This document shows positions 16,094-25,676 of a DNA stretch of 64,000 nucleotides, piece by piece. Under the pieces are notes generated by a model that saw only the letters and a list, made by a program, of their open reading frames with translations, searched no databases and had not been told where the DNA came from. This stretch comes from Achromobacter sp. UMC46 (GTDB lineage: Bacteria; Pseudomonadota; Gammaproteobacteria; Burkholderiales; Burkholderiaceae_B): positions 62,001 through 126,000 of the forward strand of contig NZ_LZZS01000031.1 of NCBI RefSeq assembly GCF_014170335.1, given 5' to 3'. A program made the position numbers and the translations under genes. Position 1 is the first letter of the stretch; the number at the start of each line of letters is the position of its first letter.

Positions 16094-18556
16094 TCAGCCC
16101 GGCGCCGTGCTCCCAGACGGCGGCTGCGTCGCCAGCACGGCGCCGGCGTCGCCGGAAATGCTGCGCAGATGCAGGTCGCGCTGCGGGAACGGGATCTGGA
16201 TGCCGGCCTGCTTCAGCGCGTCGTACAGGGACGTCAGCAGATCGCTGCGGATATCGATCCAGCGGTCGAAATCGGTGGTCCAGGCGCGCAGGCTGAAGTC
16301 CAGCGTGCTGGCGCCGAAGCCCATGAACAGCACGACCGGCGCAGGGTCGGCCTCGATGCCCGAGGTCTGCCGTGCCACGTTTTCCAGCAGCGCGATGACC
16401 TGCTTGGGCTCCGACCCGTAGGCCACGCCGAGACTGATTTCAATGCGCCGGCTGCGGTCCAGCATCGTCCAGTTGGTCAGCTTTTCGGACAGCAGCGTGC
16501 CGTTGGGCACGATCACGTCGGCGCCCTCGAAGGTCTTGATGCGGGTGGCCCGCATGCCGATGTCGCGCACCTGGCCGGAGGTGCCGCTGATGTCGACCAC
16601 ATCGCCCGGTTGGATGGGCCGTTCGAACATCAGGATCAGCCCCGACACGAAGTTGTTCACGACGCCCTGCAGCCCGAAGCCGATGCCCACGCCCAGGGCG
16701 CCGAACACGATGGTCAACTGGCTGGTCTGGAAGCCCGCGGCCGACAGTGCGATGCCCAGCCCCAGCAACAGCACCAGGTAGTACGTCAGCGACGCGATGC
16801 TGTTGCCTACGCCGCGCGGCAGCGCCATGCGGGTCAGCACCTCGTCGTGCAAGACCAGGCGTATCGTGCGCGCCGCCCAGAACGCGATCACGACCGAGAT
16901 CAGGAACACCAGGACGTTGCCCAGGCTGATCGAGATCTCGCCCACGGCCAGCGTGTAGGACAGCACCTCGGCCACGAACGCATAGGTGGCGCGCAGGATG
17001 CGGAAACGGTCCATCGCGTAGACCGCCCAGCCCACGGCCGCGCCGGCCGTCAACAGGCGTATCAGCAGCTGCACCAGCGGCGGCGCATGCTCGCGCGCCA
17101 GCCGGAAACGCGAGATCCCCTGGCGCGCCAGCAACAGCTGCAGCAGCGTGGTGATGACGGTCACGCCCGCGTAGAGCACCAGCCCGAAGTAGCCGCTGCC
17201 GATGACCGCGCTGGTCAGCATTTCGGCCAGGGACACGTTGCCGAACAGGTTGGCGGCCAGCGACACGCACAGCAGCGCGGCCGCGCCCCAGGCGATGGCC
17301 CGCAGGGCGTGCACCAGCCGCGTCGACGCGGTGGGCGCCATCTTGTGGCTGCGGTGCATCAACCACAGGATGGCGGCCAGCGCAGAGGCCGTCAACGCCA
17401 CGGTGGACAGCCGGTAGAACAGGGTGTTGGCCAGGAACAGGAAGCCCAGCCGTTCGGCCAGGAACAAGGCGGTGATCACGTGCGGCCACTGATCCATCAG
17501 CCGGCGCGCGGCAGGCGGCAGCAGGCGCAGCACGGGCACGGCCGCCAGCACCAGCGCAACCTGCTGCACCATCAACGGCGCATCCGGCTCCAGGGCCAGC
17601 ACCCCCAGCATCGACAGCAGCAGCCAGGTGGACAAGGGGCGGCCCAGCACGCCGGCGGCGGTCTCGCTCATGACGCCCGCGCGGATCGCGTCGCGGCTCT
17701 TTCGGGCCAGCCACAGCAAGAGCGGCAGCAGCAGCACCTGCAGCACGCGCAGGGCGCGCTGGTTGCCGCTGTCGGCCGCGCCGTAATCCCGGGCGAAGCG
17801 CACTTCGATGTCCAGTCCCGTCCGCAGCAAAGCCATCGTGTCTTCGCCGGCTTCCTGCGCGCGGCCCAAGTCCCATAGCGGCGCCGAATCCACGCGCATC
17901 AGGCGGGCGTCGATGTAGTCGATGGCGTCGGCGACCGAGCGCTGGCCGGTCCGGATCCGTTCCTCGACGGAATTGGCGCGCTGTTCCAGCTCGACCTGGC
18001 GGGAGAGCGGGCCGGACAAGGCCTGCCCGGCCGCGGTCAGCCGCGCCAGGACCGTATCCACGCGCTCGCTCAACGCGGACGGCAGGCTGGCCGCCTCGGG
18101 AGCATCCTTGATGGCTTGCCAGGCGGTGCGGCGCCGGAACAGGTCGGCCGCGTCGCTGGCGTACCAGGACGTGGCCTGGCGCAGGTCGGCGCGCCAGCGC
18201 GCCAGCCGGCGGGCGTCGAAGAGCCAATGCCGTTCCAGGCTTTCCACCCGCATGATGGGCAGGGTGCGCAGCTGGGCCGGCTGGAATTCATAGAGTTTTT
18301 CGTCGACGGACTTGGCGATGGCGTCCAGCGTGGGCGTGAGCGCGGCGCCCGGGTCGGCCGCCGCCACGCGTTGCAACACGCTTTCGGCGTAGCGCACATC
18401 GGTATCCGCCCGAAGGGGGATGTCGGCCATCTGGATGACGGGCGGAGGCGCCTGCGCAGGAGCGGGCGATGCCGCCGTGGCCTGCGCGTCAGCCTGGGCC
18501 GGCAGGCCCAACAGCAATCCGAACAGACCGTAGAGGATTCGTGCTCGGACGCGCAT
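16094..18556 (-). CDS. MscS-family mechanosensitive channel, large multidomain type
   Basis: 820 residues. A signal peptide (ILYGLFGLLLGLPAQADAQA) leads a periplasmic helical domain of roughly 250 residues, then many transmembrane helices, then the MscS pore and beta domains. The diagnostic stretch is LGALGVGIGFGLQGVVNNFVSGLILMFERPIQPGDVVDISGTSGQVRDIGMRATRIKTFEGADVIVPNG. It probably gates on membrane tension to release solutes at osmotic downshock; the long N-terminal region places it with the large MscK/YbdG-like channels. It stands alone between convergent genes. Confidence 0.93.
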   Translation of the reverse strand: MRVRARILYGLFGLLLGLPAQADAQATAASPAPAQAPPPVIQMADIPLRADTDVRYAESVLQRVAAADPGAALTPTLDAIAKSVDEKLYEFQPAQLRTLPIMRVESLERHWLFDARRLARWRADLRQATSWYASDAADLFRRRTAWQAIKDAPEAASLPSALSERVDTVLARLTAAGQALSGPLSRQVELEQRANSVEERIRTGQRSVADAIDYIDARLMRVDSAPLWDLGRAQEAGEDTMALLRTGLDIEVRFARDYGAADSGNQRALRVLQVLLLPLLLWLARKSRDAIRAGVMSETAAGVLGRPLSTWLLLSMLGVLALEPDAPLMVQQVALVLAAVPVLRLLPPAARRLMDQWPHVITALFLAERLGFLFLANTLFYRLSTVALTASALAAILWLMHRSHKMAPTASTRLVHALRAIAWGAAALLCVSLAANLFGNVSLAEMLTSAVIGSGYFGLVLYAGVTVITTLLQLLLARQGISRFRLAREHAPPLVQLLIRLLTAGAAVGWAVYAMDRFRILRATYAFVAEVLSYTLAVGEISISLGNVLVFLISVVIAFWAARTIRLVLHDEVLTRMALPRGVGNSIASLTYYLVLLLGLGIALSAAGFQTSQLTIVFGALGVGIGFGLQGVVNNFVSGLILMFERPIQPGDVVDISGTSGQVRDIGMRATRIKTFEGADVIVPNGTLLSEKLTNWTMLDRSRRIEISLGVAYGSEPKQVIALLENVARQTSGIEADPAPVVLFMGFGASTLDFSLRAWTTDFDRWIDIRSDLLTSLYDALKQAGIQIPFPQRDLHLRSISGDAGAVLATQPPSGSTAPG

Positions 18557-18600: not shown

Positions 18601-19380
18601 CTAGCGCATCACCAGTCCGCCGTCCACGAACAGCACCTGCCCGGTCATGAATCCGCTCCAGTCGGACGCCAGGAACAGCACGGGGCCAGCGACGTCCTCG
18701 GGCCGGGCGATGCGGCGCAGCGGGGTGGCGGCGGCCAGTTGTTCGCGGAACGATTCCTGGGCGCCCTCGCTGGCCTGGGTCGGGTAGACCAGGCCGGGGG
18801 CGACGCAGTTCACCCGGATCCCGAATGGGCCCAGCTCCGACGCCAGGTTGCGGCTGAACGCCACCAGCGCGGCCTTTGCGGTGGTGTAGTCGTGGTACGG
18901 CACAACCGGATGCTCGGTAAGGTTGGTGGCGATATTGACGATGCAGCCTTGCGCGCGCTGTTTGAAATGCGGCAGTGCGGCCTGGCAGACGTTGAACGCC
19001 GCACCGACCGCGCCGTCGAACTGCGACTGGTAATCCTGCCAGCCGAGGTCGCCGAACGCGGTGCGCTGGCGGGGATCGAAAGCGTAATGCCGCAAGGCGT
19101 TGTTGACCACGACGTCCAGCCGGCCGGCGTCCTGCACGATGCCGTCGACCATGGCGCGCACCGCGTCCGGCGAACCGACGTCGGCCTGCACGGCCCAGGC
19201 GTCGCCGCCGGCAGCCTGGCATTGCGCCACCACGGCCTCGGCCGCTTCGGCGTTGCTCAGGTAGTTGACGACCACCGTCGCCCCTTCCCGCGCGAATCCG
19301 CGCGCGATCTCGGCGCCGATGCCGCGGCTGGCTCCGGTCACCAGCACCACCTTGCCTGCGAATTTCAGGGCGGCGTTCAT
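18601..19380 (-). CDS. SDR-family oxidoreductase, last gene of the TPP-riboswitch operon
   Basis: 259-residue short-chain dehydrogenase/reductase with NAD(P) motif VLVTGASRGIGAEIARGF and active-site YTTAK. Two departures from the classical family are visible: NNAL replaces NNAG, and the residue 13 before the catalytic tyrosine is threonine (VNIATNL) where serine is usual. Its ATG begins 1 nt after the stop of the ABC receptor gene, so it is translated with the operon. In this context I infer it reduces the aldehyde made by the LuxC-like enzyme to an alcohol. A 3-oxoacyl-ACP reductase role is the generic alternative. Confidence 0.88.
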   Translation of the reverse strand: MNAALKFAGKVVLVTGASRGIGAEIARGFAREGATVVVNYLSNAEAAEAVVAQCQAAGGDAWAVQADVGSPDAVRAMVDGIVQDAGRLDVVVNNALRHYAFDPRQRTAFGDLGWQDYQSQFDGAVGAAFNVCQAALPHFKQRAQGCIVNIATNLTEHPVVPYHDYTTAKAALVAFSRNLASELGPFGIRVNCVAPGLVYPTQASEGAQESFREQLAAATPLRRIARPEDVAGPVLFLASDWSGFMTGQVLFVDGGLVMR

Positions 19381-19381
19381 G

Positions 19382-20416
19382 TCAGGCCGCCGGCAGCAGG
19401 GTGGCGTCGACGGCGGCGGCCACATCGATGGGGCGCTGCACCAGGCCCAGCTCGTGGTAGACATCGGCCGCCTTCTGCAGCGAGTCCAGATCGATCGTGC
19501 CCAGCGGCCGTCCTCCCGAGGCGATCGACGCGGCATTGCGCAGCTTGATCACGTCCAGGTTGATGGCGCGGTCGGTACCGTCGATGGCGCGCTTGCCGGC
19601 CAGCGTGGCGGCCTCTTCGGGCTGGGCGATCATCCACGCGGCGCTGTCGCGGTAGGCCTTCAGGAACGCCCGCAGCAGCGGCTGTTTTTGCTGAAGCACG
19701 GGTTCGCGCACCACGAACAGGTCGCTGGACACGTTGAGGGTGTCGGCGACGTTCATCACGTTGACGTCGCCCAGGCCGCGCCGGCGCCCCACCAGCAGGC
19801 CGGTGTCGGTGGCCGCGGTGGCGTCCACCTGACCCTGCAGCAGCGGCGCGAAGTTCAGCACGCCGGTCACCACGATTTCAACGTCGGATTCGGTCAGGCC
19901 GGCCTGGTGCAGCAGCACCAGCAGGTTCTGGCGCGTGCCGCTGGCCAGGCTGTAGACGCCGATGCGCTTGCCTTTCAGGTCCGCCGGCCGCGTGATGCCG
20001 GCCGGTTTTAACGACACGACGTTGAAGACGTTCTGCGGATAGATGTCGTAGATGGCGCGCAGCTTTTCGCCCTTATCCAAGGCCATGAAGAACGAGCCGG
20101 GGTCGGTGAACGCCACGTCGGCCTGGCCGCTGAGGATGTTGCGGATGGCGTCGCCGCCGCCCGCGCCCGGCAGGTAGACCAGTTCCAGGCCCTGCGCCTT
20201 GAAGAAGCCCTTGTCGGGTTCGGCCAGCAGGTTGGTGATTTCGCTGATCGGCTTGCTCCAGCCGGCCAGCGTGACCTTGCCGGAAGCGGCGTCTTGCGCA
20301 CTATGTGCGCGTGCGGTGAGCGGCGTCAGCGATGTCGCGGCGAGGCTTGCCGCCGCGGCCAGCAGCGCGCGGCGGGTAGGGGACGGGAGCATGGGAAGCG
20401 TCCTGGAAAATGTCAT
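19382..20416 (-). CDS. NMT1/THI5-like ABC transporter substrate-binding protein (ThiY/SsuA type)
   Basis: Periplasmic receptor of 344 residues with a Tat-like or long signal region (TRRALLAAAASLAATSLTPLTARAHS). The mature protein has the NMT1/THI5-like pattern: SEITNLLAEPDKGFFKAQGLELVYLPGAGGGDAIRNILSGQADVAFTDPG and KGKRIGVYSLASGTRQNLLVLL. The start at 20416 overlaps the permease stop as ATGA, favouring it over the ATG at 20392. Family members bind thiamin pyrimidine precursors (ThiY) or sulfonates (SsuA). The upstream TPP riboswitch points to a thiamin-related ligand. Confidence 0.9.
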   Translation of the reverse strand: MTFSRTLPMLPSPTRRALLAAAASLAATSLTPLTARAHSAQDAASGKVTLAGWSKPISEITNLLAEPDKGFFKAQGLELVYLPGAGGGDAIRNILSGQADVAFTDPGSFFMALDKGEKLRAIYDIYPQNVFNVVSLKPAGITRPADLKGKRIGVYSLASGTRQNLLVLLHQAGLTESDVEIVVTGVLNFAPLLQGQVDATAATDTGLLVGRRRGLGDVNVMNVADTLNVSSDLFVVREPVLQQKQPLLRAFLKAYRDSAAWMIAQPEEAATLAGKRAIDGTDRAINLDVIKLRNAASIASGGRPLGTIDLDSLQKAADVYHELGLVQRPIDVAAAVDATLLPAA

Positions 20417-21177
20417 GGGTGATCCGAATAGGGGCGCAGCAGGCGCCGCTCGAGCATCAGGGTGGCCTGATAGCCCAGCAGGCCGATGACGGCGATGGCG
20501 GCCAGCGCCGCGAACATGAGGGGCGTGTCCATCATGCCTTGCGCGGCGATGATGACGGCGCCCAGCCCGCGGCTGGCGCCGATGAATTCGCCCACCACGG
20601 CGCCGACCAGCGCCAGCACCAGCGCCACGCGCAAGCCCGCCAGGATGCCGGGCAGGCCTGCAGGCAGTTTCAGGCGCAGCAAGGTCTGCGCGCGCGAGGC
20701 GCCCAGCATGCGGAACAGTTGCAGCCGGTTCGGATCTACCTGCCGCAGGCTGGTCAGCGTGTTTTCCATCAAGGGGAAAAAGCAGATCAGGGCGGTCATG
20801 CCCACCGTGGGCGCCATGCCGAACCCGAACCACAGCACGAACAGCGGGGCCAGCGCCAGCTTGGGGACAACCTGGCTGACGATGACATAGGGCTTGAGCA
20901 CGCGGTCCAGCAAGGCCGATTCGGCCAGCGCCACGCCCATCGCCAAGCCGGCCGCGCCGCCCAGCGCCAGGCCCAGCAGCATCTCCGCCAGGGTCGCGCC
21001 AATATGCGGCCACAGGTAGCCGGTGGCCAGGCTGGTCCACAGCGTCTTGGCCACGGCGGACGGGGCGGGCAGCACCAGCGCGGAAATGCCCGCTTGCCGC
21101 ACGGCCGCCTCCCAGGCGCCCACCAGGACGACAAGCAGGGCGACCGCCAGGAACCGGGAGGGGAAGGCCTGTTTCAT
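20413..21177 (-). CDS. ABC transporter permease (ThiX/SsuC type)
   Basis: 254-residue BPD_transp_1 inner-membrane permease with about six helices. The cytoplasmic coupling loop is in GLRVALVLALVGAVVGEFIGASRGLGAVIIAAQG. Start ATG at 21177 overlaps the ATPase stop by the four bases ATGA, and its own stop overlaps the receptor start the same way. It forms the membrane channel of the TPP-regulated importer. Confidence 0.93.
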   Translation of the reverse strand: MKQAFPSRFLAVALLVVLVGAWEAAVRQAGISALVLPAPSAVAKTLWTSLATGYLWPHIGATLAEMLLGLALGGAAGLAMGVALAESALLDRVLKPYVIVSQVVPKLALAPLFVLWFGFGMAPTVGMTALICFFPLMENTLTSLRQVDPNRLQLFRMLGASRAQTLLRLKLPAGLPGILAGLRVALVLALVGAVVGEFIGASRGLGAVIIAAQGMMDTPLMFAALAAIAVIGLLGYQATLMLERRLLRPYSDHP

Positions 21178-21938
21178 GGGCGGGCCCCGTTCATGATGTC
21201 GAACACCTGCGCGCAATGCGCATTGAAAGCCGCGCCATGCCGCATCGACTGCGTGCGCGGCGCGGGCAGGTCCACGCGCAGGTCGGCCGCCATGCGCCCC
21301 TGATGCATGACCGCGACGCGGTCGCCCAGGTACACCGCTTCGCCGATGTCATGCGTGACGAACAGCACGGTCGTCTTGCGCAGGCGGCACATCCGCATCA
21401 GGTCGTCTTGCAGTTCGCCGCGCGTGATCGCATCGAGCGCGGCGAAGGGCTCGTCCAACAGCAGCAGGGCGGGGCGCAGGATCAGCGCCCGCGCCAGCGC
21501 GGCCCGGCTTTGCTGGCCGCCGGACAACTGCCGCGGGTAATGCCGCGCATGGTCGGCCAGGCCCAGCATCTCCAGCAGTTCGTATGCGTGTTCGATGTCG
21601 TCCGCCGTGGGCCGGCGTTGCAGCGACACCGGCAGCAGCACGTTGTCGACGACGCGCCGCCATTCCAGCAGCGTGGGCGCCTGGAAGACGTAGCCCAGCT
21701 TCGGGCCGGGCACGGCGGGCGTGCCGTCCCACAGCCGGACGCGGCCCGATTGCGGCGTCAGCAAGCCCGCGGCCAGCTTCAGCAGCGTTGTCTTGCCGCA
21801 GCCGCTGCGGCCGACCAGGCAATGAAATCCGCCGGCATCCAGCCGCCAGTCGATGCCGTCGACGACGGGTGGCCGGCCCGGGTAGGTGTAGACCGCCTGT
21901 TCAATGTCCAGGAAGGGCGCGGACGGGTCGGCGCTCAT
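21174..21938 (-). CDS. ABC transporter ATPase (ThiZ/SsuB type)
   Basis: 254-residue nucleotide-binding subunit. Walker A is GRSGCGKTTLLK, signature LSGGQQSRAALARAL, Walker B LLLLDEPFAALD, and the switch histidine is in VLFVTHDIGEAV. Start 21938 overlaps the luxC-like stop as ATGA. It powers the importer formed with the permease and NMT1-like receptor downstream. Confidence 0.93.
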   Translation of the reverse strand: MSADPSAPFLDIEQAVYTYPGRPPVVDGIDWRLDAGGFHCLVGRSGCGKTTLLKLAAGLLTPQSGRVRLWDGTPAVPGPKLGYVFQAPTLLEWRRVVDNVLLPVSLQRRPTADDIEHAYELLEMLGLADHARHYPRQLSGGQQSRAALARALILRPALLLLDEPFAALDAITRGELQDDLMRMCRLRKTTVLFVTHDIGEAVYLGDRVAVMHQGRMAADLRVDLPAPRTQSMRHGAAFNAHCAQVFDIMNGARP

Positions 21939-23395
21939 GGTTCGTAGCGCGCGAACGGCTCGGCGGCGGCTTCGGCGGATTGCTCGATCTCGGCCATGCG
22001 GACCAGGTCCAGCAGATTGAAGCGGCCATCGTGATGCCATCCGGCTTCGGGCATGCTCATCGCGCCGATGGCGCTCACGCGCGTGACGCCCGCCGCCCCG
22101 AGTTGATCGGCCAGCCGGTACAACTCTTCCGGCGTGGCGGCCACGCCGGCGGTTTGCAGGAATTCGCGGTGGGGCGCGACCCGGGGCGCCACGTCGTCCA
22201 GCGCGTCGATGGCGGCCACGGTGATGCTGCGTTGCAAAGCGGTCGGCGCCAGGGCGCCGGCATCATCGGCATAGGCGACGCTCCATGCCGCGTCTACGTC
22301 GCCGATCAGCGCGTCCGCGCCATCCGGCGCCAGCGTCCATTCGATCGACTGGCGCCACTTCGCGACCGAGGCCGACTCTTCCAGGTCCAGCGCGCGCCGC
22401 GGAAAGCGCCGCTGCAGGTTCGACAGTTCGCCCGCCAGATAGCCGGCGAAGTCGCGCGGCGAAACCGGGCCACCGCGCTGCACGTAGAAAACGTGCGGCG
22501 AATAGCAGCCCTGCTGGTCATAGCGCATCACGTCCCAGGCGGCGCGGCGCGCCAGGGCAGGCGCCTTCTGGGCATCCAGCGCCATCGCGCTGACCACGCC
22601 GAAACCCAGCTTGTGGCCGTGTGCTAGAAAGCGCGTCGTGACCGGCAGGCGCCGCTGGATGGCGTGCAGCGCATCGTTGCCGCCATACGCCACTACCGTG
22701 TCGGCCTGGGCGTAAAGCGCCGACGCGTCCTCGCCGCCCGCGCCGCGCCACCACACCACCGCCAGGCAATCGGCCAGCGGTGGATGCACCTCTGCGAGCA
22801 ATCGTGCGAACCAGCCCGCGAACAACGGCTCGGCGGTGGGCAGTTTTCCGATATTGCCGGCCTTCACCAGCAGGCCGCACACCAGGCTCCACAGCGCCAG
22901 CGCAGGCACGTTGCCGGCCCAGCTGTGCGCCAGCAGCTGCGGACCATAGGCGCGCACCGCGCCGCCTTTGGCCGCAGGCTGGAATGCGTCCAGCACCTTG
23001 GGGTTGGCGAAATCTTCGGCCACGAAGCGATGCAGCTGCGGCGCGCGGAACGTCTTGAAAAAGCCGGTCAGCCCCAGCCGTACCATCTCGGCGTCGTAGC
23101 CGCTGACGACCGGCAGCAGCGCATCGGCCTGCCGCCGGTACGGGTCGTCGGGATCCAGCAGGCGGGCGATGGCGCGGTCGATGACGGTGATGATCTCCGA
23201 TACCGTCATCGTCTTCAGATGCTGCGCGCTGGCGCGTTTGACGCGCTCGGCAAGCGCCTGCATCTGCGGCGCGGACAGCACCGGCACCGCGACGTCGACG
23301 CGCTGGCCGTCCTGCTCGAACGGCAAGACTTGCCATTGGACATCGGCCGGGGCCAGCCCCGGCAGGTATCCCGCCTCGACGCGAAGGGTCTTCAT
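21935..23395 (-). CDS. LuxC-like acyl-CoA/acyl-enzyme reductase
   Basis: 486 residues, LuxC family, an aldehyde-dehydrogenase-related NADPH reductase that turns an activated acyl group into an aldehyde. Typical segments are SWAGNVPALALWSLVCGLLVKAGNIGKLPTAEPLFAGWFARLL (about residues 158-200) and the active-site region DQQGCYSPHVFYVQRGG with the presumed acyl-accepting Cys297. The frame is open upstream, but ATG 23395 is chosen because it overlaps the LuxE-like stop (ATGA). No luxA, luxB or luxD is present, so light production is not its job. With the TPP riboswitch and transporter, I infer reduction of a thiamin-related carboxylate. Confidence 0.9.
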   Translation of the reverse strand: MKTLRVEAGYLPGLAPADVQWQVLPFEQDGQRVDVAVPVLSAPQMQALAERVKRASAQHLKTMTVSEIITVIDRAIARLLDPDDPYRRQADALLPVVSGYDAEMVRLGLTGFFKTFRAPQLHRFVAEDFANPKVLDAFQPAAKGGAVRAYGPQLLAHSWAGNVPALALWSLVCGLLVKAGNIGKLPTAEPLFAGWFARLLAEVHPPLADCLAVVWWRGAGGEDASALYAQADTVVAYGGNDALHAIQRRLPVTTRFLAHGHKLGFGVVSAMALDAQKAPALARRAAWDVMRYDQQGCYSPHVFYVQRGGPVSPRDFAGYLAGELSNLQRRFPRRALDLEESASVAKWRQSIEWTLAPDGADALIGDVDAAWSVAYADDAGALAPTALQRSITVAAIDALDDVAPRVAPHREFLQTAGVAATPEELYRLADQLGAAGVTRVSAIGAMSMPEAGWHHDGRFNLLDLVRMAEIEQSAEAAAEPFARYEP

Positions 23396-24474
23396 GGCGT
23401 GGCCGACCGGATGAACTCTTCGACCGCCAGCGAGCAGCCCTTGGCCTGGGCGCCCTCGGCGCGGCCCAGCAGCAGGAAGCCGCCGTCTGCCGGCAGTCCG
23501 ACGTCTTCCGTCAGGATGGTGTTGACCGAATTGAAGTTGCCCAGGTCGCAGTGCGCCAGGATGCCGCGTTCGCCGGCCGGCACCGTGCGGCCGGTGGCCG
23601 GATCGACCAGGCGCGAACGGATCCAGTGCGGACCCGACTTGACCGACGGCACGACGGCGTTGCCGTCGTCGTAGAACTGCGTGCTGAGTTCCGTCATGCC
23701 ATACATGTTGATGCACAGCGCGCGCGGCACGCCCAGCAGTTCCGAGAGTTCCGAATAGAACGTGTCCAGCGGCAATTCGCGCGACTGGCCCTTGTAGCCG
23801 CCGGTGTCCAGGATGCGGCTGCCCGGCGGTAGCTGGAACGAGCGGCCTTCCTTGCGCAGCGCGTCGATGACGTGCACGAAGCTGAAGCTGGCGCCCAGCA
23901 GCGCATAGGGCTCGCCCCGGCGCTCGGCCTCTTCCAGCCGGCGCCACAGGCCGTCCAGGTCGATGCCCTGCGGCGACATGAAATAGCGGCTGTCTTCGGT
24001 GCCGAAGGCGGACTTCGCCAGCGCCAGGTAGTGCGCCAGCGACGAATTGGGCATCGCGATTTCGTCGGGGAACAAGATGCCCATCGGCAGGCGCGCCGTG
24101 CCCTGCATGACGCGCTTGTCGAAATTGCGGGTCATGGACAGGTCGTAGACGTCCAGATGCGGATGGAAGTGGCGCCCGCGCATGTCCGCGCGCGTCGTGC
24201 CGCTGGTCATGAACACGCGCTCGTCGGGGCGGGCGGGTTCGCAGCGCAGCTCCATCGCCTTGAAGGCGTCGATGGGCACCGCCGGAATGTCGCTCCACGT
24301 CTTCACGTTGCGCACCGTCGCGCCGCGGCGCTGGCAGAAGCTGCGGTAGGGCGCGCTGGCGCCGTACTGATAGGCGAAAAGCCGCAGCGCAAGCTGATCG
24401 AACTGTTCGTCGGTGCAGCCGTCCTGGGCGATGAATTCGAGTAGTTCCGCGACCGGCGCGGCGGCATTGTTCAT
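23392..24474 (-). CDS. LuxE-like acyl-protein synthetase (carboxylate-activating enzyme)
   Basis: 360 residues, acyl-protein synthetase family. It activates a carboxylic acid with ATP as acyl-AMP and passes it to a cysteine for reduction by LuxC. Visible are the adenylation motif VFMTSGTTRADMRGRHFHPHL, the LDTGGYKGQSRELPLDTFYSELSELLGVPRALCINMYGMTELSTQFYDDG core and the C-terminal AKGCSLAVEEFI, where Cys347 matches the acyl-carrier cysteine of LuxE. Start ATG 24474 lies 81 nt after the aptamer, with only a weak ribosome binding site. First gene of the TPP-controlled operon. Confidence 0.9.
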   Translation of the reverse strand: MNNAAAPVAELLEFIAQDGCTDEQFDQLALRLFAYQYGASAPYRSFCQRRGATVRNVKTWSDIPAVPIDAFKAMELRCEPARPDERVFMTSGTTRADMRGRHFHPHLDVYDLSMTRNFDKRVMQGTARLPMGILFPDEIAMPNSSLAHYLALAKSAFGTEDSRYFMSPQGIDLDGLWRRLEEAERRGEPYALLGASFSFVHVIDALRKEGRSFQLPPGSRILDTGGYKGQSRELPLDTFYSELSELLGVPRALCINMYGMTELSTQFYDDGNAVVPSVKSGPHWIRSRLVDPATGRTVPAGERGILAHCDLGNFNSVNTILTEDVGLPADGGFLLLGRAEGAQAKGCSLAVEEFIRSATP

Positions 24475-24555
24475 GGGCGTTCGTTGATTCCAGTACAGGG
24501 AAGCTCCGAAGCCCGCCTGCGCAAGCGGCGCAAGGGCGCGGCAGGACAAGGCGAA
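24475..24555 (-). promoter_or_regulatory. Riboswitch expression platform and leader
   Basis: Between the aptamer and the luxE-like start the minus strand can form a GC-rich hairpin. Its arms are CTTGCGC and GCGCAGG around 24510-24535, with further CCC/GGG pairing outside. No T run follows it, so a classical intrinsic terminator is not seen. Control of translation initiation or Rho-dependent termination is more likely. The ribosome binding site upstream of ATG 24474 is weak. Confidence 0.5.
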
Positions 24556-24630
24556 TGCTCTTCTTACGCCGGCATGAACCGGGTCAAGTTCGCGGGTCTG
24601 AATCTCAGCACTGGCGTGCACCCCGGAGCA
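24556..24630 (-). ncRNA. TPP (THI-element) riboswitch aptamer
   Basis: Read on the minus strand, the conserved THI-box elements occur in order: CCGGGGTGC, a short P3 hairpin GCAC-GCCA-GTGC, CTGAGATT, ACCCGCGAACTTGACC, then CGGTTCATGCCGGCGTAAGA. The closing P1 helix pairs TGCTC at the 5' end (24630-24626) with GAGCA at the 3' end (24560-24556). This matches the thiamin pyrophosphate aptamer consensus very well. It lies in the leader of the LuxE/LuxC/ABC/SDR operon and should switch it off when TPP is abundant. Confidence 0.97.
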
Positions 24631-24760: not shown

Positions 24761-24798
24761 ATAGAGGGTCCCAAGTCCCGTCCAACAGGAAGCCCGCC

Positions 24799-25104
24799 AT
24801 GCCCGCCACCGCTCTTGTTCAAGCCCGCATCGACCCCGTTCTGAAAGAGCGCGCCACGCAAGTGCTCAACAACATGGGCCTTACCGTGTCGGACGCCGTG
24901 CGCATTCTTTTGACCCGCGTGGCCAACGAAGGAACGCTGCCGTTCAATTTTGCCGTGGACCCCGCCGCGCATGACGCCTGGTTTCGCGCCAAAGTGCAAG
25001 AAGCCTTGATCGACACGCGGCCAGCCGTGCCCAATGAAGAAGCCTCCGCCCATTTCGCCAAACGCCGCGCCGCCGCTCTGCGCAAAGCTGAGGGCAAGAC
25101 GTGA
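24799..25104 (+). CDS. RelB/DinJ-family antitoxin
   Basis: 101-residue antitoxin. The N-terminal ribbon-helix-helix is ALVQARIDPVLKERATQVLNNMGLTVSDAVRILLTRVANEGTLPF, followed by a charged toxin-binding tail (EEASAHFAKRRAAALRKAEGKT). ATG 24799 follows AGGA at 24787-24790; an in-frame start at 24751 falls inside the operator and is rejected. It neutralises the downstream toxin and represses its own promoter through the palindrome at 24741. Its stop overlaps the toxin GTG start. Confidence 0.92.
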   Translation: MPATALVQARIDPVLKERATQVLNNMGLTVSDAVRILLTRVANEGTLPFNFAVDPAAHDAWFRAKVQEALIDTRPAVPNEEASAHFAKRRAAALRKAEGKT

Positions 25105-25391
25105 AGGTGGAGTGGTCAGCGTTTGCGATGGAAGATCGCGGCAGGATTTTTGATTACATCGAATCAGAAAGCCCCAAGGCGGCGGTAGAGGTTGATATCC
25201 GTATCGAAGGGCAGGTCGATCAACTCGTGCAGTTCCCGGAGTTAGGACGGCTTGGTCGCATAGAGGATACCCGCGAATTGGTTATCAGCCAGACGTCGTA
25301 TGTCGTGCCTTATCGGGTCTACGGGAATGTGGTTCGCATTCTGCGTGTGCTGCATTGCGCACAGCAGTGGCCGGATGAACTCAGTGACTGA
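25101..25391 (+). CDS. RelE/ParE-superfamily toxin
   Basis: 96-residue small basic toxin of the RelE/ParE fold: VEWSAFAMEDRGRIFDYIESESPKAAVEVDIRIEGQVDQLVQFPELGRLGRIEDTRELVISQTSYVVPYRVYGNVVRILRVLH. The GTG start overlaps the antitoxin stop (GTGA), giving coupled translation. The conserved C-terminal YRV...RILRVLH strand is present. Sequence cannot tell mRNA cleavage (RelE) from gyrase poisoning (ParE); the RelB/DinJ antitoxin slightly favours RelE/YafQ-like action. Base composition is more AT-rich than its neighbours, suggesting acquisition. Confidence 0.9.
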   Translation: MKVEWSAFAMEDRGRIFDYIESESPKAAVEVDIRIEGQVDQLVQFPELGRLGRIEDTRELVISQTSYVVPYRVYGNVVRILRVLHCAQQWPDELSD

Positions 25392-25420: not shown

Positions 25421-25496
25421 TGGTGGCCTGGGGCGGAATCGAACCACCGACACAAGGATTTTCAATCCTCTGCTCTACCGACTGAGCTACCAGGCC
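25421..25496 (-). tRNA. tRNA-Phe (anticodon GAA), copy 1
   Basis: The minus strand folds as a complete 76-nt tRNA: acceptor GGCCTGG pairing with CCAGGCC, D arm with GGTAGAGC, anticodon stem GAGGA/TCCTT region with loop TTGAAAA (anticodon GAA), T arm GGTTCGATTCC and encoded CCA. It is identical to the copy at 25601. No separate promoter is visible between the two copies. Confidence 0.97.
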
Positions 25497-25600: not shown

Positions 25601-25676
25601 TGGTGGCCTGGGGCGGAATCGAACCACCGACACAAGGATTTTCAATCCTCTGCTCTACCGACTGAGCTACCAGGCC
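25601..25676 (-). tRNA. tRNA-Phe (anticodon GAA), copy 2
   Basis: Base-for-base identical 76-nt copy of the tRNA-Phe at 25421, with encoded CCA. It is the promoter-proximal copy. Flanking sequences differ, so the duplicated unit is close to the tRNA itself. Confidence 0.97.

Follow-up and report, generated by a model that had tools for sequence, protein, structure and literature searches.

Which compound does a bacterium take up and reduce when LuxE-like and LuxC-like enzymes, an ATP-binding cassette (ABC) importer and a short-chain dehydrogenase/reductase (SDR) are placed together behind a thiamin pyrophosphate (TPP) riboswitch? An operon of this kind lies on the minus strand of the stretch analysed here (the window), 64,000 nucleotides (nt) of contig NZ_LZZS01000031.1 of Achromobacter sp. 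UMC46, whose genome measures 6.68 Mb. We infer that it probably serves to salvage the pyrimidine half of thiamin and is repressed by TPP, its ligand, each of its reactions and its direction of regulation being predictions. The computational support comes from the riboswitch, the conservation of the operon, enzyme families with invariant cysteines, linkage to thiD and other thi genes, and retention of ThiG. The parts of the operon are given below in window coordinates (aa, amino acids).

24635-24544, minus: TPP riboswitch aptamer, RF00059 (cmscan 59.9 bits, gathering score 54.3, E = 3.1e-9 over the whole window)
24543-24475, minus: leader of 69 nt, from the aptamer to the luxE start codon, read from the sequence
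24474-23392, minus: LuxE-like acyl-adenylating / acyl-protein synthetase, 360 aa (PF04443, 65.9 bits, cut-off 24.9)
23395-21935, minus: LuxC-like acyl-thioester reductase, 486 aa (PF05893, 287.8 bits, cut-off 21)
21938-21174, minus: ABC transporter ATPase of the sulfonate/nitrate importer type, 254 aa (PF00005, ABC_tran)
21177-20413, minus: ABC transporter permease, 254 aa (PF00528, BPD_transp_1, 105.9 bits)
20416-19382, minus: NMT1/THI5-like periplasmic receptor, 344 aa (PF09084, NMT1)
19380-18601, minus: SDR, 259 aa, proposed aldehyde-to-hydroxymethylpyrimidine (HMP) reductase (PF13561, adh_short_C2, 205.7 bits)

The riboswitch match was found again in a whole-genome scan (C31:86544-86635), and its start lies 5 nt past the end of the stretch (24630) delimited in the original prediction, which had been made from the letters alone. 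The TPP aptamer proposed there on the minus strand, ahead of six coupled genes, is confirmed by the RF00059 score and by Pfam profile matches in the stated order; the coupling, described as ATGA overlaps or 1-nt spacing, holds in the sequence, where junctions one to four are ATGA overlaps and the last two genes are separated by 1 nt. The claim that luciferase and thioesterase genes are absent is borne out for the six operon genes, the rest of the window and the genome not having been scanned for either. For luxE, the longest listed frame begins at a GTG (24621), a start that would run the coding sequence through the aptamer, and the ATG at 24474 was therefore taken. No intrinsic terminator was found in the leader by a simple scan, for which reason riboswitch control at the level of translation is likely; the 161 nt from the aptamer to the start codon fold no more stably than shuffled sequences (z = 0.12). 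The operon would probably be on when TPP is low.

To establish how far this arrangement is shared, LuxC was searched in 300 genomes of the order, where 7 matches were close (46-100% identity, one of them from the window's genome) and 5 distant, and in one genome per species of 84,980 species, which gave 168 relatives. The best 80 of these 168 were kept; their carriers include Achromobacter, Bordetella, Acidovorax, Comamonas, Delftia, Variovorax, Ramlibacter, Polaromonas, Thauera, Azospirillum, Bosea and others. Together with four loci from the genome searches, 84 loci were examined. All six genes are present in 79 of them, the other five being cut by contig ends, and gene order and strand are identical in 78 of the 79 untruncated loci, the single exception (L071) being traceable to an SDR start picked by script. 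L021 and L074 are cut at contig ends, and a search with a covariance model covered the remaining 82 loci; in 79 of them it placed a TPP aptamer ahead of the operon on its own strand, so that these clusters do not consistently lack TPP riboswitches. Three of these 79 positives are not independent of the eight seed sequences of the model, because L111 is both a seed and a searched locus and the seeds L006 and L011 come from the genomes of L069 and L116. The three negative loci are L085, L088 and L090, the last cut close upstream. The operon is thus confirmed as a real observation, conserved beyond chance.

The distant LuxC genes (L012-L016, 27-34% identity) have no match to the importer genes within a 1.5 kb flank, and no TPP match above the gathering score was found in L012 and L013, the two of them that were scanned. 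Several single loci have features of their own. L085 and L088 have sister LuxC sequences and a pcm-like gene (judged by eye) upstream; in Variovorax sp. WS11 (L055) the record that carries the operon is titled plasmid pVarWS11_2; and in a record titled Pantoea sp. 18069 (L040) LuxC groups with an Acidovorax sequence (100/99 support), for which transfer or a mislabelled or mixed assembly are possible.

In the LuxE family a C-terminal cysteine is the acyl acceptor, and LuxC proteins have a nucleophilic cysteine. The LuxE profile matches the LuxE chain of PDB 7xc6 (7xc6_E, E = 1e-27) with KGCS aligned to KGCS, and the LuxC profile matches 7xc6_A (E = 6e-29) with DQQGC aligned to DQQAC; the corresponding residues, Cys347 of LuxE and Cys297 of LuxC, are invariant across 22 sequences. 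The operon pair is therefore like the LuxC-LuxE fatty acid reductase of bioluminescence (7xc6) in the adjacency of LuxE and LuxC and in both cysteines at aligned, invariant positions. It differs in being distant in sequence, in its TPP control and its company of an importer and thi genes, and in scoring far under the fatty-acid equivalog cut-offs (LuxE 61.9 bits against 550 for NF052244, long-chain-fatty-acid--protein ligase; LuxC 82 bits against 750 for NF052251, long-chain-fatty-acyl reductase). When the LuxE model was compared using Foldseek, PaaK and other acyl-CoA ligases were nearest, 7xc6 being absent among the best 50 matches listed; neighbours of the PaaK type are too general to prove an aryl substrate. 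The SDR reaches 292.3 bits against a cut-off of 292 for NF006393 (3-oxoacyl-ACP reductase-like).

The model of the receptor most resembles ThiY and a thiamin-binding protein: ThiY (PDB 3ix1) is the top match by Z (32.2) and the second by Foldseek E-value, at 18% identity. With its ThiY receptor fold, ATPase and permease, the three-gene importer is of the ThiXYZ type. The nearest NCBIfam model of the ATPase is PRK11247 (193.8 bits, under the cut-off of 395), and the receptor reaches 94 bits with the SsuA sulfonate family TIGR01728, under its cut-off of 163.5. Downstream of ThiXYZ the associated chemistry is hydrolytic (YlmB/TenA); here, in contrast to the importer with the ThiY that binds formylaminopyrimidine (FAMP; 3ix1), it would be reductive (LuxE, LuxC, SDR). 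In the HMP phosphate synthase Thi5 (PDB 4h6d, 4esx) a CCCFC stretch is important; this stretch is absent from the window receptor in the alignment to 4h6d. The receptor has no cysteine at all and carries an RR-type signal peptide (judged by eye), from which it follows that it is a binding protein and not a Thi5 enzyme, and Thi5-like catalysis by it was rejected.

The partners of the operon were then considered. A neighbour census based on crude calling of open reading frames returned thiD as a recurrent upstream partner in 13 loci; the other large neighbour clusters had mixed positions and strands, or came from few related loci. Twenty loci have no TPP motif directly before luxE, and in 18 of them the preceding gene is thiD (by eye), with the riboswitch placed upstream of thiD by the covariance model where these loci reach far enough; the other two are L085 and L088, with a different gene upstream. 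In L067, L079, L090, L096 and L010 thiD was recognised by eye in the sequence, and for L067, L079, L096 and L010 the search of the genomes for ThiD matched at that position. TIGR00097 confirmed ThiD in both loci tested (L066, 318.1 bits; L112, 316.7 bits; cut-off 204.95). The SDR gene is followed by a ThiO homologue in L066 (208.3 bits, under the cut-off of 250.8) and by ThiE homologues in L096 and L112, with ThiG further along in L111 and L112. The two ThiE homologues (L112:7540-8628, 362 aa; L096:13797-14915, 372 aa) have an N-terminal extension of about 130 residues of unassigned role.

A sample of 59 genomes from the genus group of Ramlibacter montanisoli (the Ramlibacter sample) was also used, a LuxC match above 100 bits being considered as the operon; weak LuxC matches (G370, G380, <70 bits) were counted as no operon and fragments (G378, G404) as operon. 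The operon is present in 34 of the 59, and in 32 of these 34 thiD lies directly upstream on the same strand, the stretch being cut by contig ends in the remaining two (G317, G404). In a LuxC tree, which omits the window's own LuxC and in which L074 and L021 (cut) and L085 and L088 (no TPP match) are labelled 'tpp' by default, the thiD arrangement changes four times, three of them forced by well-supported branches.

Within the Ramlibacter sample, 45 genomes lack ThiC (PF01964; the partial ThiC of G367, G311 and G394 was scored as present). ThiG is found in 26 of the 28 with the operon against 2 of the 17 without (Fisher p = 4.7e-8), and ThiD in 27 of 28 against 4 of 17 (p = 4.0e-7). What holds is this retention of ThiG and ThiD given the loss of ThiC, and a genome that lacks ThiC but retains the thiazole branch must draw its pyrimidine from elsewhere. 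One candidate is CytX, a putative HMP transporter (TIGR02358) for alternative pyrimidine uptake in the ThiC-less genomes G402, G410 and G361; it differs from the operon in being a symporter of the NCS1 family without reductases, and its matches are below the curated cut-off of 309.85. CytX-like matches above 200 bits occur in 2 of the 28 ThiC-less operon genomes (G313, G382), and G410, a ThiG keeper without the operon, has one of 228.5 bits. With ThiC and CytX as the sources searched, the operon appears to be the only recognised pyrimidine source in many ThiC-less genomes of the Ramlibacter type. Outside the sample, ThiC is also missing from the operon genomes G240, G301 and G318, which have the thiD arrangement. 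Ramlibacter montanisoli itself has the operon, and no ThiC was found in it. According to PMC3164672, Ramlibacter tataouinensis TTB310 depends on growth factors and is without key thiamine enzymes.

A second set comprised 59 operon genomes (58 distinct, G237 being the same as G362). All 7 with the thiD arrangement lack ThiC. In the stand-alone arrangement (52 rows) ThiC is missing only from G361 (Variovorax dokdonensis), where a TPP riboswitch precedes a cytX-like gene in the neighbourhood of thiO and thiG. ThiM gives a match above 200 bits in 12 of the 80 operon genomes and none so strong in the other 68.

These data were used to propose a pathway. When TPP is low, an oxidised pyrimidine would enter through the ABC importer, the likeliest candidate being 4-amino-2-methylpyrimidine-5-carboxylate (HMP-carboxylate). 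LuxE would adenylate the acid with ATP and transfer the acyl group to its Cys347; LuxC would receive it on Cys297 and reduce it with NAD(P)H to the aldehyde, which the SDR would reduce to HMP. ThiD would then phosphorylate HMP, and ThiE would join the product to the thiazole made with ThiG. A pyrimidine is favoured because of the thiD linkage, the retention of ThiG in ThiC-less operon genomes, the lack of a strong ThiM match in 68 of 80 genomes and the nearness of the receptor model to ThiY; HMP as the product fits the linkage, since ThiD acts on HMP and its gene accompanies the operon in the Ramlibacter group. The original prediction had proposed import of an oxidised precursor and its reduction by LuxE, LuxC and the SDR under TPP control: this general idea fits the data, with a predicted substrate and predicted catalysis. 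Of its three candidate substrates, the pyrimidine carboxylate is now favoured, and thiazole acetic acid and thiamin acetic acid are disfavoured by the thiD linkage, the kept ThiG and the scarcity of ThiM. HMP-carboxylate is a thiamine metabolite in rat urine, according to the title of Neal and Pearson (1964) in the references of PMC7780320.

Several observations weigh against this proposal. Loss of ThiC shows no association with the operon in the Ramlibacter sample, ThiC being present in 6 of 34 genomes with the operon and 8 of 25 without (p = 0.23), and ThiC is present in 51 of the 59 operon genomes of the second set, so that the operon is mostly not the sole pyrimidine source there; a strict replacement of ThiC was rejected on both counts. 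For most carriers of the second set, window's genome included, having ThiC means that the operon would be an extra source. ThiD retention is partly trivial, because thiD belongs to the operon unit in the Ramlibacter group, and joint keeping or loss with ThiG is expected for any gene useful only with a working thiamin pathway. The Fisher test ignores the relatedness of the genomes, many of which are metagenome-assembled or drafts and possibly incomplete. In an RpoB tree (60 genomes given, 44 matched, 40 used after G302, G389, G402 and G404 were dropped as fragments; G240 and G361 included), the operon changes 7 times and ThiG 6 times over 30 ThiC-less rows, with 4 well-supported independent pairs, about 3.5 concordant and none discordant; the association between operon and ThiG thus does not come from one clade only, but it is not secure statistically, because with four pairs p cannot fall below 0.125. 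G409 keeps ThiG and ThiD without ThiC, the operon or a CytX match, its pyrimidine source being unexplained or its assembly incomplete. The ThiM counts cover operon genomes only. Finally, in L085 and L088 the operon stands without a TPP match nearby.

Among other explanations, the one that survives best, although unlikely, is that the importer serves HMP- or FAMP-like pyrimidines and LuxE, LuxC and the SDR repair HMP acid or aldehyde inside the cell, or else that a larger pyrimidine-derivative acid is imported. Equal linkage and ThiG retention would be predicted, and N-formyl-aminopyrimidine is the ligand of the nearest receptor fold; an importer for HMP itself would have no use for reductases, however, and yet the six genes stand together in 78 of 79 loci. 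Salvage of the other half of the vitamin, by import of 4-methylthiazole-5-acetic acid, its reduction to hydroxyethylthiazole (HET) and phosphorylation by ThiM, is compatible with TPP control and acid-reducing chemistry, and the window's own genome has ThiM (254.1 bits). Against it stand the 68 of 80 operon genomes without a ThiM match above 200 bits, the retention rather than loss of ThiG in ThiC-less operon genomes, and the linked kinase, thiD, which acts on the pyrimidine. Whole-vitamin salvage, in which thiamin acetic acid is imported and reduced to thiamin, would leave a cell with no need of ThiG or ThiD, whereas ThiC-less operon genomes retain them in the proportions given above; thiamin kinase was not searched for. 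Both were judged very unlikely, on the scarcity of ThiM, the retention of ThiG and ThiD, and the thiD linkage. Action of LuxE-LuxC on fatty or unrelated acids with incidental TPP control, as with a sulfonate importer, is scarcely credible: the receptor does match the SsuA family (under its cut-off) and LuxE is called 'long-chain fatty acid--CoA ligase' in some database entries, whereas LuxE and LuxC fall far under the fatty-acid equivalog cut-offs, the operon is placed between thiD and other thi genes, and the riboswitch is present in 79 of 82 loci.

Other genes of the window flank the operon. An MscS/MscK-type mechanosensitive channel gene (16094-18556, minus) lies directly downstream on the same strand; a pair encoding a RelB/DinJ-type antitoxin and a RelE/ParE-type toxin (24784-25391, plus) is divergent from it; and two tRNA-Phe (GAA) genes (25421-25496 and 25601-25676, minus), about 100 nt apart, are identical in Rfam score and matched sequence. 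Elsewhere in the genome, the strongest TPP riboswitch (77 bits; G000:C24:75319-75426, or L113 7427-7320, minus) precedes a gene for a 483-aa sodium/solute symporter (SSF, PanF-like, under equivalog cut-offs), possibly a ThiV-type transporter. Two thiC matches of equal score (613.6 bits) were found on different contigs (G000:C3:8228-9607 and G000:C42:143414-144793), both behind equal-scoring TPP matches (39.8 bits, under the gathering cut-off), which may be a duplication or an assembly artefact.

The operon appears to represent an undescribed form of pyrimidine salvage for thiamin, one that works through carboxylate reduction of the Lux type. No paper describing it was found by title or abstract in the open-access literature, among the matches listed. 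Rodionov 2002 is said to list a TPP-regulated reductase, 'oarX', so that a partial earlier mention is possible. The main text of a riboswitch-regulon survey (PMC3766115) names no LuxC, LuxE, acyl-CoA reductase or Comamonadaceae, and since this family is absent there the survey may have missed the main carriers; thiXYZ is mentioned alone in two passages of PMC2211319.

On balance we lean towards the view that soil and water contain HMP-carboxylate as a so far unrecognised B1 vitamer, and that the LuxE-LuxC reductase with its importer replaces the radical-SAM (S-adenosylmethionine) enzyme ThiC as the sole pyrimidine source in many thiazole-making Burkholderiales. The list of vitamers given in passages of PMC10881298 (HMP; AmMP, aminomethylpyrimidine; FAMP; HET; cHET, carboxylated HET) contains no pyrimidine-5-carboxylate. 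If true, this would add a new salvage route and a new vitamer to the B1 cycle, and would give a function to proteins some of which are named long-chain fatty acid--CoA ligase in databases. LuxE-LuxC chemistry would extend beyond its luminescence and fatty-acid setting, and could provide an ATP-driven carboxylate reductase that acts on a small water-soluble acid. Where a missing ThiC has led to a genome being scored as a thiamin auxotroph, the bacterium may instead use a pyrimidine acid: in the Ramlibacter group, 28 of the 34 operon genomes lack ThiC and 26 of these 28 keep ThiG.

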